In this document: positions 31,052-39,032 of the stretch, piece after piece
Numbering within the stretch: position 1 is the stretch's first letter
How the letters are laid out: each line of letters opens with the position of its first letter
Assembly (NCBI GenBank): GCA_012729095.1
Contig: JAAYDU010000039.1
Coordinates: 1 to 42,643 of the forward strand
Direction of reading: 5' to 3'
Source: Methanobacteriota archaeon
GTDB taxonomy: Archaea; Thermoplasmatota; Thermoplasmata; Methanomassiliicoccales; UBA472
DNA: 42,643 nucleotides
Notes under the pieces: generated by a model
Seen by the model: the letters and a program-made list of their open reading frames with translations, nothing else
What the model was told of the DNA's origin: nothing
Database searches by the model: none
Program-made: the position numbers and the translations under genes

Positions 31052-31948
31052 TCAGTCCATCTGCATTATCACGCCGCTGCCCTTGCGCGCGATGGCCCTG
31101 GAGCTGACCTCCTTCCATATGCGGTGGAACTCCAGAGCGGCCGGGGACTGGGGGAACATGGAGGGAAGGGGCCGCATTGCCTTAATGGCCTCGTTCACGT
31201 TCGCATCGTAAGGCACGCGTCCAACGACGATAACGCCCTGCTTACGGCAGCTCTCCTCGATCTCCCTGGTCATGCCCTGATGCAGGTCCCACTTGTTCAC
31301 CGCCACGCATATGGGGATGGAGAAATGCTGCGCGAGTTCCACCAGGCGAAGCAGGTCGTGCTCGCCGGAACGGCTGGGCTCGGTTATTGCCAGTATCAGA
31401 TCCACCCCGGTTATGCTGGCTATTGCCGGGCACCCGGTGCCTGGGGGTCCATCTATCAGCACCACGTCAAGACCGTCCGATTCGGCCAGGTCATCGGCGA
31501 GGTTGCGCACTATGGTCACCAGCTTGCCGCTGTTGGATTCCCCAGGCTGCAGCTCGGCATAGGCCATGGGTCCCCGGTCCGTGTCCAGCACGAATATCTC
31601 TCCCGACTTGCTCAGGCCCATGGTGACGGCTCCCACCGGGCAAACTATCTTGCAGGCCCCGCAGCCCTCGCAATGGATCGCGCTGACCTTGAAGTCTGAG
31701 ATGGCATCGAATATGCAGGCATCCTCGCACTTGCCGCACTCCACGCACAGCTTCGGGTCTATGGTCGCCCTCAACGCTCCGTTGTAATCGTTCTTGGTGC
31801 GTACCTGGCCGTTCATCGTGAGCGCCAGGTTCGCCGCGTCCACATCGCAGTCCGCCAGCACCATTCCCTGGGAGTACCAGGCCATGGAGGCCACCGCTGT
31901 GGTCTTTCCCGTTCCTCCCTTCCCGCTCATCACGGCTATCCTGGTCAT
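31052..31948 (-). CDS. MinD/Mrp-like P-loop ATPase with ferredoxin insert (1)
   Basis: 298 residues. The deviant Walker A GKGGTGKTT is at residues 9-17. A two-cluster ferredoxin insert lies about residues 68-110 (CVECGKCEDAC and CEGCGACKIVC). The switch motif is LIDGPPGTGCPA. It probably carries or transfers Fe-S clusters in an ATP-dependent manner, like ApbC/Mrp. Its start overlaps the stop of its paralogue by 4 bp. Confidence 0.9.
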   Translation of the reverse strand: MTRIAVMSGKGGTGKTTAVASMAWYSQGMVLADCDVDAANLALTMNGQVRTKNDYNGALRATIDPKLCVECGKCEDACIFDAISDFKVSAIHCEGCGACKIVCPVGAVTMGLSKSGEIFVLDTDRGPMAYAELQPGESNSGKLVTIVRNLADDLAESDGLDVVLIDGPPGTGCPAIASITGVDLILAITEPSRSGEHDLLRLVELAQHFSIPICVAVNKWDLHQGMTREIEESCRKQGVIVVGRVPYDANVNEAIKAMRPLPSMFPQSPAALEFHRIWKEVSSRAIARKGSGVIMQMD

Positions 31949-32775
31949 CGTCGCATCCCCCTTATCTCGGTGAACATGTCCTTAAGCTCTTCTTTGATGC
32001 CCGGCATGGCCTCCAGGAGGGAACCTCCCTTGGCGTACGTCTCGGCCACCTTCCTGTCGAACGGAATGCGCATCAGCACCGGAACGTCCTCGGCCTTGCA
32101 CAGTCTTTCGATTATGCCATCGTCCTCCGAGGAGCGGTTGATGACCACTCCGCAGGGGATCTCCAGGCGGCGGCACACCGTTATCATGCCCCTCAGGTCA
32201 TGCTCCCCGAATGGAGTGGGCTCCGTCACCAGCAAGGCGAAGTCCGCGCCGTCCACCGATTCGACCGCAGGGCAACTGGTGCCCGGGGGACAATCGATTA
32301 TGACGAGGTCGTCCTGCTGCTCCTTGATCTTCTTGATTATCGGCACTGAAAGGGCCTCTCCAGTTCTCAGCTCGCCGGAGAAGAAGCGCATGACCCCGGC
32401 GGTACCGGAGAACATCATACCGACCGGCCTTCCGGCCATGGTAATGGCGTCCCTCGGGCATACCAGGCGGCACACGCCGCATCCGTGGCAGAGGTTCGCC
32501 ATCAGCCTCACCTTCTTGCCCAGTCTGATCATTGCCCCGAACTGGCACTCCTCCACGCATCTGCCGCAGGCGTCGCACAGCTTCGGGTCTATCACCGGGT
32601 AAGGGACCATAACTTCCTGGTGCGAGGTGATCTCGGGTCTCAGGAACAGGTGGGCGTTGGAACCCTCCACGTCACAGTCCAGGAACGTCAGCGGACGGTC
32701 CAATGCCAGCGCCAGGGCGCAGGCAACCGATGTCTTTCCAGTGCCTCCCTTCCCACTTGCTATCGCTAGGATCAT
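31945..32775 (-). CDS. MinD/Mrp-like P-loop ATPase with ferredoxin insert (2)
   Basis: 276 residues, a paralogue of the downstream gene. Walker A is GKGGTGKTS; ferredoxin insert cysteines are CDACGRCVEEC and CHGCGVCRLVC; switch II is IIDCPPGTSCPA. The pair probably works as a heterodimer in cluster or metal-cofactor handling with the NifX-like protein. Confidence 0.9.
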   Translation of the reverse strand: MILAIASGKGGTGKTSVACALALALDRPLTFLDCDVEGSNAHLFLRPEITSHQEVMVPYPVIDPKLCDACGRCVEECQFGAMIRLGKKVRLMANLCHGCGVCRLVCPRDAITMAGRPVGMMFSGTAGVMRFFSGELRTGEALSVPIIKKIKEQQDDLVIIDCPPGTSCPAVESVDGADFALLVTEPTPFGEHDLRGMITVCRRLEIPCGVVINRSSEDDGIIERLCKAEDVPVLMRIPFDRKVAETYAKGGSLLEAMPGIKEELKDMFTEIRGMRR

Positions 32776-36104: not shown

Positions 36105-36482
36105 ATGGATGAGAAGGAGCAGGAGGAAAGGGTGCGCAAGGTATTGGACAAGGTCCAAAAGGAGTACGGGTTCATACCCCTGGTATCGGAGATCATGTCC
36201 AAGCGGCCGGACCTGTATCTGCCATACTCAGAACTCTCCTCAATCCTTTTCTTCAAGCCAAAGCACATGGACCAGAGGACCACCGAACTCGCGGCCATCG
36301 CCGCCAGCGCGGCCCTGGGAAGCGACCATTGCCTCAACGTGCACATCCCCCAGGCAATGAAGGTCGGGGTAACGGAAGAGGAGGTCCTGGAGGCCATGCT
36401 CGTCGGCGCTATGATGGGTTTCAACCGCAGCAACTCAATTTCCCTGCGCTGCTTCAAGGCGGCCACGGAGGCCAAGGAATGA
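36105..36482 (+). CDS. AhpD/carboxymuconolactone decarboxylase-like protein
   Basis: 125 residues. The CMD helical core is DQRTTELAAIAASAALGSDHCLNVHI. The redox C-x2-C of AhpD reads S-x2-C here, so peroxidase-type disulfide exchange by the usual pair is unlikely. The ATG at 36105 follows GAGG. The next gene begins 8 bp after its stop. Confidence 0.85.
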   Translation: MDEKEQEERVRKVLDKVQKEYGFIPLVSEIMSKRPDLYLPYSELSSILFFKPKHMDQRTTELAAIAASAALGSDHCLNVHIPQAMKVGVTEEEVLEAMLVGAMMGFNRSNSISLRCFKAATEAKE

Positions 36483-36490
36483 GGTGCGCG

Positions 36491-36922
36491 ATGGGAAGCA
36501 TGGGCAGGGTGCTGGTGGTGCGCCTGGAAACCGGCGACGTGCTTCACGAGTGCGTCGAGCGGGCGGCCAAGGAGAACGGCATTTCCCGGGCGGCGGTGCT
36601 CGCCCTGGGGGGAGCGGACAGGGGAAGCAGGATGGTGGTGGGTCCCAAGGACGGCCGCTCGGAGGATATCGAGCCCATGCTGACCGAGCTTGCAGGCGAA
36701 TCAGAGATGGCCGCCGTCGGGACGCTGTTCCCTGACGAGAGCGGGGCGCCGTCACTGCACATGCACGCCTCCGCTGGCAGGGGAGGCGGCAGCGTCACCG
36801 GCTGCGTGCGCGCCGGAGTCAGGACCTGGTTGATCCAGGAGGTGATCGTCATCGAGATATCTGGCGTGATGTCTAGGAGGGTAAAGGACCCCCGCACCGG
36901 CTTCGACCTGTTGGAGCCCTGA
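36491..36922 (+). CDS. PCC/DUF296-domain protein
   Basis: About 143 residues. The PCC fold features LVVRLETGDVLHE, SRAAVLALGGADRG, HMHASAGRGGGSVTGC with clustered His, and an IVIEISGV end. In bacteria and archaea it is a trimer with a possible metal site. ATG 36491 lies behind GAGGTG; ATG 36479, overlapping the upstream stop, is the alternative. Confidence 0.85.
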   Translation: MGSMGRVLVVRLETGDVLHECVERAAKENGISRAAVLALGGADRGSRMVVGPKDGRSEDIEPMLTELAGESEMAAVGTLFPDESGAPSLHMHASAGRGGGSVTGCVRAGVRTWLIQEVIVIEISGVMSRRVKDPRTGFDLLEP

Positions 36923-37759
36923 TCAGAAGGCGTCAACGCAGCGCATTCCCCTCTCCTGGAACTTGCGGCGCAAGAGCATCTCCAGTCCGCGGTAGTCCTC
37001 GGTCCGGTGAGCCTTCTCCAGGCGCTGGGCGATCTCCCTGCCCCCGTCGCGAGAGGCCATGTCCTCGAACATGCCCGGCCGGGAGCGGAACCTGTCGAGC
37101 ATAGCCCAGGTTATGCCGGTAAGGCTCAGCGCCTCCACGAGCTCGTCGATGTCCCTTTCCGTCAGCAGGGGCAGCAGAGGGCCGATGAGCGCGTAGGCGT
37201 TCAACCCTTCATCGGCCAACTTTCGCAGCGCTTCCAAGCGCCTTCCGGGAAGGGGCGCGCCGGGCTCCAACGAGCGGCTCAGATCGTCGCTTACAGAGGT
37301 GACCGTTATTCCCACCTCGCCCTTCAGCTCCCTGTAGAGGTCAATGTCCCTCAGTATCAGGTCCGATTTTGTCAGGGCGCTCACAGCCAGTCCATGCGGG
37401 ATTATCTCCATGAGACAGCGCCTGGTTATCAGAAGGTGCCTTTCAGCCTCCTGATAGGGGTCGGTGACCGTGCCCAGTCCGATGGTGCCCTTCTTCCCCC
37501 TTATCTGCTTCGCCAATACCTGCGGCAGGTCCGTTCTCGCCAGTACCGTCGTCCATTCTGACCTGGGCTTCCTGGTGACGTAGGGGGCGTAGCAGTACAG
37601 GCAGTCGTGATGGCATCCCACGTAAGGGTTCAGAGCGTAATCGAGGCCGGGGAGGCGCGATGCTGGCAGCGCCACCTTGGTATGTACCTCGCCGATGCGC
37701 GGCGCCTTCGGCGGGGGACCCCCTTCCTCCAGCATCATGAACAGGTCAAGGTTAGACAT
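36923..37759 (-). CDS. Radical SAM protein, SPL (spore photoproduct lyase)-like
   Basis: 278 residues. The radical-SAM cluster motif is C49-x3-C53-x2-C56 (GCHHDCLYCYAPYV). The rest matches the SplB-like group (VTDPYQEAERHLLITRRCLM, AVSALTKSDLILRDIDLY, ITVTSVSDDLSRSLEPGAP). Spore photoproduct lyase repairs a thymine photoproduct; in archaea this group's substrate is unproven. It overlaps nreA by 8 bp. Confidence 0.9.
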   Translation of the reverse strand: MSNLDLFMMLEEGGPPPKAPRIGEVHTKVALPASRLPGLDYALNPYVGCHHDCLYCYAPYVTRKPRSEWTTVLARTDLPQVLAKQIRGKKGTIGLGTVTDPYQEAERHLLITRRCLMEIIPHGLAVSALTKSDLILRDIDLYRELKGEVGITVTSVSDDLSRSLEPGAPLPGRRLEALRKLADEGLNAYALIGPLLPLLTERDIDELVEALSLTGITWAMLDRFRSRPGMFEDMASRDGGREIAQRLEKAHRTEDYRGLEMLLRRKFQERGMRCVDAF

Positions 37760-39032
37760 AGTCGTCGATCCTCCTCTGATGCTTCAGGTCCTTCAGGACC
37801 TCGCTGTGATAGGTCCAGGTACTTATGGGAATGTCCATCCTGGTCTGCACGTACGCCATGGCCTGGTCCAGGGTGTTGAACTTGCGCGGTCTCTGCGTCA
37901 GCGCCATCCTGACGTTCTCCCTCACGTTCCACACCCCGACCGGAAGCAGGTACCCGGGATGCGCCTCGCGGAATATGACGGCGCCGGACTGCCGGCGCTC
38001 CCTCTGAAGCAGCTCGTTCACTGCCAGCCTGGCAGCGTAATAGCATCCGCCTATCTCCGCGTAGTCCTTGCGCCCGTCAAAGAACTCGTGCGATGAGATG
38101 ATCTCCACCTGCCGCCCGGCCGGGTTCCACACGGTGTTCGGGTACCAGGCCTCTATCAGCTCGTACCTCCAGGAGGTGGGGGTCAACATAACGCTCCAGC
38201 GATTGTCCAGCTGGTCCCAGTCGTACACCCGGAACTCGTTGATCAATGGAAAGGTCTTGGTGCTCCGTAGCAGGTCCTTCCCCAAAAGGTCGTCCACGGC
38301 GGTGATGCTCCAGCGGGTGGGCACCAGCCGGCGGTTCTGCTCTATCCCGAAAGCCCCGACGCTGAACGCCTTCTGTATGCGGGATATAAGCACTTCGTTC
38401 TTGTAAAGCCCCTTCACCGCCTCGGCGGCCTTGAGGTCCGTATCGTAGTACGCCTTCTCCACCTTGTGATCGTACTTGGGGTTGGTTATGCTCAGCTTCT
38501 CGAGCTTGGCCGACGGTCCGAAGGGCTGTATGTTATCGTCAAGCACGATGCGCCCTGAAGGTTTCTTGGAGAACCTTGCCTCTACGTCCACCGAGTTCAC
38601 CGAGAGCGCCAGTTCCCTGGTGAAGTCCACTATGCGGCCGCCGTTCTGGAAGTCCTTGACGTCGACCAGATGCTTGCCCCTTACCAGGCGGAAGCGGAAG
38701 TCCACTATCTCGTCCATGGACTTGCCCATCCATTGCTCCGGGGTGTCCATGATGAGGGTGTCCCCAAGGTCAGGGGGTACCAACGGGCCGATGTCCACCT
38801 TCGGGTAACCATAACGCCCGACGAACACTCCGGGGGGCGAGCTTCCGTGCAGGTCCTGCGTGTCTATGAGCCTTTTCGTCTTCGTGTACGAATAGAACTT
38901 GACCATGAGTGGACAGCGGTCCTTTCCGCACAGGTTCTTGGACCCCTTGCAGATATGGCAAAGGCTTGACCTGCCCTTGTTCGAGGTAGTGAACGTCTGG
39001 GGGTCCAACGGCAACGGTGCGAAACCCTGCAT
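37752..39032 (-). CDS. nreA: DNA repair protein NreA
   Basis: About 426 residues from the ATG at 39032, where the family's N-terminus begins; a longer frame to 39206 has no family-like sequence. A zinc-binding motif lies at C25, C28, C35 and C40 (CHICKGSKNLCGKDRC). The C-terminus QRRIDDYV fits a PIP box (Q-x2-I-x2-Y-V) for binding PCNA, as in characterised archaeal NreA. Known archaeal mutants are DNA-damage sensitive. It is translationally coupled to the SPL-like gene. Confidence 0.93.
   Translation of the reverse strand: MQGFAPLPLDPQTFTTSNKGRSSLCHICKGSKNLCGKDRCPLMVKFYSYTKTKRLIDTQDLHGSSPPGVFVGRYGYPKVDIGPLVPPDLGDTLIMDTPEQWMGKSMDEIVDFRFRLVRGKHLVDVKDFQNGGRIVDFTRELALSVNSVDVEARFSKKPSGRIVLDDNIQPFGPSAKLEKLSITNPKYDHKVEKAYYDTDLKAAEAVKGLYKNEVLISRIQKAFSVGAFGIEQNRRLVPTRWSITAVDDLLGKDLLRSTKTFPLINEFRVYDWDQLDNRWSVMLTPTSWRYELIEAWYPNTVWNPAGRQVEIISSHEFFDGRKDYAEIGGCYYAARLAVNELLQRERRQSGAVIFREAHPGYLLPVGVWNVRENVRMALTQRPRKFNTLDQAMAYVQTRMDIPISTWTYHSEVLKDLKHQRRIDDYV

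Follow-up and report, generated by a model that had tools for sequence, protein, structure and literature searches.

What do an Nre-family protein and a radical SAM enzyme do together when their genes overlap on the same strand? The question is raised by a locus of a Methanomassiliicoccales archaeon (lineage UBA472, assembly GCA_012729095.1), located in contig JAAYDU010000039.1. The whole stretch of 42,643 nucleotides that was analyzed is referred to below as the window. Nre proteins are known only from archaea, and the pairing of an Nre gene, that of NreB, with an SplB-like gene was already published in 2016 (PMC4929162). Since then, what archaeal SplB-like enzymes act on and what Nre does biochemically have figured in the literature as questions to be answered, and our data narrow both. 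What is new in this study is the restriction of the pairing to one Nre clade, its spread over phyla, the lack of the Cys141 of spore photoproduct lyase (SPL), the absence of UvrB and the overlap of a PIP-like motif with a Shine-Dalgarno-like site and a start codon. The link thus belongs to one clade of Nre, the cysteine mechanism known from SPL is unavailable to the enzyme and, in the window's order, the pair must work without UvrABC. The features discussed are as follows.

36923-37759, minus strand: radical SAM gene of the COG1533 group (the partner), 278 amino acid residues, SPL-like but not an SPL (Pfam Radical_SAM, hhalign, AF2)
37469-37471, minus strand: Thr97, which aligns with the hydrogen-donor Cys141 of SPL (hhalign register)
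37592-37615, minus strand: radical SAM cluster motif C49-x3-C53-x2-C56, with Y55 and Y57 (conservation)
37752-37759, minus strand: 8-bp overlap ATGTCTAA, with the partner start codon and the Nre stop codon (sequence)
37752-39032, minus strand: Nre-family gene, NreB-type, 426 amino acid residues (Pfam Nre_N/Nre_C, two trees, single Nre of the genome)
37755-37778, minus strand: PIP-like C-terminal tail QRRIDDYV (matches Q-x-x-h-x-x-aromatic; Val at position 8)
37770-37777, minus strand: AGAGGAGG, Shine-Dalgarno-like site for the partner, inside the PIP codons (sequence)
38913-38960, minus strand: Cys4 motif C25-x2-C28-x6-C35-x4-C40, for zinc or Fe-S (conservation)

Layout and distribution of the gene pair

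Both open reading frames and their 8-bp overlap were found as a first-pass annotation had described them. The Nre gene ends with ...GAC TAT GTC TAA, inside which lies the partner ATG, so that the Nre stop codon (37752-37754) and the partner start codon (37759-37757) both fall within ATGTCTAA. The partner was immediately downstream of Nre at 116 distinct Nre loci, and at 105 of them its start codon was no more than 20 nt away from the Nre stop codon, which is beyond chance. Together with the overlap, this bears out the suggested translational coupling. On its other side, the radical SAM gene is convergent with a gene for a PCC-domain (PF03479) protein (36329-36922, plus strand), with zero gap between the stop codons. 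Elsewhere in the window, at 31052-32775 on the minus strand, are two adjoining, overlapping genes for MinD/Mrp-type P-loop ATPases, both of which carry 4Fe-4S ferredoxin motifs as insertions.

The survey of neighborhoods that had been suggested showed, contrary to the lack of conservation that would have counted against the repair idea, a pair conserved across several archaeal phyla, as it recurred in Thermoplasmatota, Halobacteriota, Thermoproteota, Hadarchaeota and Asgard archaea. In most lineages of Thermoplasmatota, the partner was directly downstream of Nre, and the pair was kept across the window's order. A partner match was found in 161 of the 207 Thermoplasmatota genomes with Nre vs. 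8 of the 86 without it (counted by hand; Fisher p = 6e-29, which is only indicative, as the test values for pairing overstate independence because the rows are related). The eight exceptions comprised five weak paralogs, two matches at contig ends and one genuine partner. Among 13 drawn genomes of Halobacteriota with a strong partner match (E ≤ 1e-70), the partner adjoined Nre in eight; the pairs of this phylum included those of Methanoperedens-named genomes. M. acetivorans was also shown to carry an Nre. In 43 drawn genomes of Thermoproteota (partner E ≤ 1e-80), the partner was directly downstream of Nre in 16, divergent from it in two and within about 1 kb in two. The coordinates were compared by hand for both phyla. 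Head-to-head pairs were found at loci L128/L129, L154, L242 and L380. The link was also lost in many NreB-type lineages, such as Bathyarchaeia. A third conserved neighbor was sought and none was found, the next-best cluster being present in 9 of 49 loci, and no locus contained an Nre-SPL gene fusion. Four apparent exceptions to the pairing (L006, L008, L011 and L023) resulted from an over-strict motif and disappeared with an HMM.

Several individual loci deviated in other ways. In G058 (L381), a single-contig genome of the window's order, Nre was lost and the radical SAM partner was kept. At L082 (G236), tandem duplicate Nre genes were followed by the partner. The divergent pairs of L128 and L129 came from MAGs named Micrarchaeota, whose Nre proteins were 57-58% identical to that of the window, possibly as a result of misbinning or transfer.

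The Nre protein and the UvrABC background

The window's Nre matched Pfam Nre_N (E = 1e-100) and Nre_C (E = 2.5e-41), and the closest named relatives were Methanomassiliicoccaceae. The gene had been labeled nreA, which our results do not sustain. In two maximum-likelihood trees (158 and 105 rows, tail columns excluded), all SPL-paired Nre proteins, 50 and 36 rows respectively, were together to one side of a branch supported by an SH-aLRT of 99, and the other side contained no paired Nre in either tree. The window's Nre, which lies beside an SplB-like gene, was inside the paired clade in both trees. Two candidate outliers were the paired Nre proteins of G362 and G372, which fell inside the NreB clade on the tree. 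Moreover, in the two-copy genomes examined that had a pair, the paired copy was always the one that scored as NreB-type. Against the haloarchaeal NreA model NF041387, the window's Nre scored 248.9 bits vs. a cut-off of 700. On these sequence grounds, the window's Nre is assigned to the NreB type by tree and neighbor, a placement rather than a name because the trees came from quick searches, were unrooted and left out the named A. fulgidus NreA/NreB references. The label is NreB-type instead of NreB because the genome has only one Nre, whereas an NreB would be a second Nre accompanying an NreA.

Similar to the published archaeal NreB-SplB-like pair (Giroux and MacNeill, 2016; MacNeill, 2016, PMC4929162), the window's pair is adjacent, with an overlap that also occurs in some of the published cases. 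The published NreB has a less clear PIP and a Cys4 motif (PMC4929162), as does the window's Nre. Different from the published pair, the window's Nre is the sole Nre of a genome in which UvrB and UvrA were not found. The text on the published pair that was searched (PMC4929162) mentions neither a change at Cys141 nor the PIP/Shine-Dalgarno/start overlap. NreA of Haloferax volcanii belongs to the same Pfam family and also has a PIP-type tail. However, it is without the Cys4 motif (PMC4929162) that the window's Nre possesses, and the latter is far below the haloarchaeal NreA model score and groups with the paired Nre proteins in the tree.

Of 62 diverse Nre proteins, at least 90% had Cys at each position of the Cys4 motif (C25, C28, C35 and C40). 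The motif that had been described as a zinc motif is therefore present and conserved, and its metal may be zinc or belong to an Fe-S cluster. The PIP-like C-terminus that had also been noted was confirmed, as QRRIDDYV matches Q-x-x-h-x-x-aromatic, though with Val at position 8. A tail of the form Q-x-x-[ILM]-x-x-[YF] was present in 30 of 30 distinct loci listed from the window's order, and judged by its sequence, binding of the QRRIDDYV tail to PCNA is plausible. The PIP was absent from 14 of 120 paired Nre proteins, so PCNA docking would be dispensable for pairing. A group of NreB-type Nre proteins of Thermoproteota has lost the PIP tail (L249, L250, L258, L263, L334, L336, L343 and L345), and the second Nre copies fetched from these genomes were without the Gln. 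The predicted fold of Nre had zero matches in the PDB at E ≤ 0.001, and single-sequence PDB searches returned nothing useful. The GyrB and MutL ATPases, which were the top names of the PDB fold search, were discarded as fold relatives at a TM score of about 0.15.

In Haloferax, the Nre family is tied genetically to repair and PCNA: NreA works together with UvrABC in countering damage by mitomycin C, and deletion of nreA leads to sensitivity to mitomycin C and not to UV or MMS (PMC4929162). Thus, a test of UV or alkyl lesions, for which the first-pass annotation had proposed the pair, is unlikely to be the most telling. UvrB was absent from all 31 genomes searched (that of the window and 30 relatives of its order), in searches whose positive controls, including Haloferax, matched. 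For UvrA, the window's genome gave only ABC-ATPase cross-matches far below the cut-off. The window's genome thus cannot use the route by which NreA of Haloferax works through UvrABC.

The radical SAM partner compared with spore photoproduct lyase

The partner matched Pfam Radical_SAM (E = 8e-15). Its three cluster Cys residues and Y55 were invariant in 77 partner sequences, and Y57 was Tyr in 73 and Phe in four. A profile of the 77 partners aligned with three SPL-family proteins in hhalign (probability 97%, E = 4e-11). In this register, the partner keeps Y97, Y99, D144 and K175 of SPL as its Y55, Y57, D100 and K131, and the C-terminal third of SPL was unaligned. The AF2 model of the partner had a pLDDT of 94, and its six best fold matches were SPL structures (TM scores 0.69/0.58, 17% identity). 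SPL (TIGR04070; PDB 4fhc-4fhg), the nearest solved fold, thus shares the CX3CX2C, YCY, TD and TK motifs with the partner, which however is shorter (278 vs. 342 residues) and has Thr or Ser in place of Cys141.

Cys141 is the proposed hydrogen donor of SPL (PMC9850924). Among the 77 partner homologs, this position was Thr in 67, Ser in 10 and Cys in none. With no Cys at this position, the enzyme must complete the return of hydrogen by a step other than that of SPL. The partner also had no match to the SPL equivalog TIGR04070 at E ≤ 0.1, a model that one alphaproteobacterial and one cyanobacterial SPL-family protein, serving as positive controls, matched with 250-517 bits. By sequence, the partner is homologous to SPL but is not an SPL, and it would carry out SPL-related chemistry at most. 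Its earlier placement in an SPL-like group holds as distant homology and shared fold and does not extend to SPL itself; the thymine-lesion chemistry attached to that placement is contradicted by the Thr or Ser in 77 of 77 homologs and by the TIGR04070 result.

The best HMM matches of the partner were PA0069 (NF033668, 128 bits), Rv2578c (NF038135, 112 bits) and rSAM mobile pair B (TIGR04470, 97 bits), all far below the respective cut-offs of 360, 430 and 410. Similar to the partner, three of the four bacterial relatives checked have the TDPY motif with T or N in place of the Cys. PA0069, Rv2578c and rSAM mobile pair B are bacterial families, whereas Nre is known from archaea only (PMC4929162). 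In bacteria, COG1533/SplB proteins are SOS-regulated (PMC8565304). In a Haladaptatus plasmid (L391, 1648-5388), two radical SAM genes come after that of the three-Cys-motif partner TcmP, and the one nearer to it is distantly related to the window's enzyme.

The putative overlapping code and the proposed working of the pair

The window's PIP codons, CAG AGG AGG ATC GAC GAC TAT GTC, contain both AGAGGAGG and the partner ATG. The ATG follows GGAGG by ten bases, a spacing longer than usual; at the neighboring thermosome gene, GGAGG is 6-7 nt ahead of ATG. By itself, GGAGG-N10-ATG is no rarity in the window, with 5 occurrences vs. 2.5 expected. Among loci with the tail motif, a Shine-Dalgarno-like core was present in the motif of 53 of 101 paired vs. 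10 of 144 unpaired Nre genes, and after thinning in 13 of 32 vs. 6 of 86 (p = 4e-5). The TAT-G start overlap, counted in the same way, was found in 29 of 101 paired vs. 3 of 144 unpaired genes, and after thinning in 10 of 32 vs. 3 of 86 (p = 1e-4). The difference in AGA/AGG Arg-codon bias between paired and unpaired loci lost its significance after thinning (p = 0.12). These correlations point to a dual code for PIP, Shine-Dalgarno site and start, from which initiation is predicted.

Pairing, coupling, clade restriction and residue changes are established from sequence, and they lead us to propose a two-subunit unit for repair of DNA lesions, in which Nre serves as an adaptor to DNA and PCNA and catalysis falls to the radical enzyme, a model to which we give a probability of about 0.5. 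Ribosomes finishing the Nre frame would restart at the ATG within its last codons, and the Shine-Dalgarno site, being the PIP coding sequence, would aid this restart, which would couple the synthesis of both proteins. For the NreB-type Nre, binding to DNA and attachment to PCNA via its tail are most likely. With a [4Fe-4S] cluster and SAM, the partner would generate a 5'-deoxyadenosyl radical in a pocket like that of SPL, and its target would be a damaged base, which may be crosslinked, with a final hydrogen step unlike that of SPL; Nre would place it on lesions at the clamp. The 5'-deoxyadenosyl radical chemistry and the PCNA-linked repair by Nre are transferred by analogy from known families, and complex formation, PCNA binding, DNA as the substrate and the type of lesion are inferred. 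Three findings weigh against the repair unit: the predicted Nre fold has no PDB relative at E ≤ 0.001, which leaves DNA binding by Nre as a prediction, the link is lost in many NreB-type lineages, and some paired Nre proteins are without a PIP. A fuller version, in which the unit reverses lesions (crosslinks) by a UvrABC-independent, PCNA-tethered radical reaction with an SPL-like fold and another final hydrogen donor, and in which the overlapping PIP/Shine-Dalgarno/start code sets the stoichiometry, is tentative and rather unlikely to hold as a whole.

The main rival is that the radical SAM enzyme acts on a target other than damaged DNA, such as RNA or Nre itself (e.g., through a radical-installed modification), and that the pairing reflects maturation. 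Radical SAM neighbors often mature the protein encoded alongside, and the missing SPL hydrogen-donor Cys also favors this reading, as does the fact that the nearest NCBIfam models, PA0069 and Rv2578c, name no established substrate. However, the best fold matches were SPL structures and the partner has most of the SPL pocket residues, COG1533 proteins occur in bacterial SOS regulons, and the Nre proteins outside the paired clade, as well as many inside it, have no partner alongside. Such a target is considered unlikely. The opposite reading, a genuine SPL that repairs spore photoproduct, has homology and fold in its favor, yet it is highly improbable given Cys141, TIGR04070, the unaligned C-terminal part of SPL and a lesion for which no archaeal occurrence is known (PMC4929162).

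A further rival is that the PIP-like tail of the window's Nre is a by-product of the encoded Shine-Dalgarno site and start codon instead of a PCNA site. AGGAGG and tATGtc do lie within the tail codons, and Val or Ala at position 8 is explained by the TAT-G overlap, which forces a G-initial codon; where ATG overlaps, the residue there is V, A, E or G, in keeping with this requirement. Nevertheless, the Shine-Dalgarno site falls in two filler Arg codons, outside the PIP-defining Q, I and Y, and Q-x-x-[ILM]-x-x-[YF] persists at loci without the ATG overlap, which makes a by-product improbable. Finally, the two proteins might serve one cellular response without ever touching, with the overlap only synchronizing their expression. 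Overlapping genes are common in compact genomes, and the lack of any Nre-SPL fusion would also agree with this. Separate action is quite improbable, however, as the pair is kept while all other neighbors change, tandem and divergent layouts both occur, and Nre and the partner tend toward joint absence.
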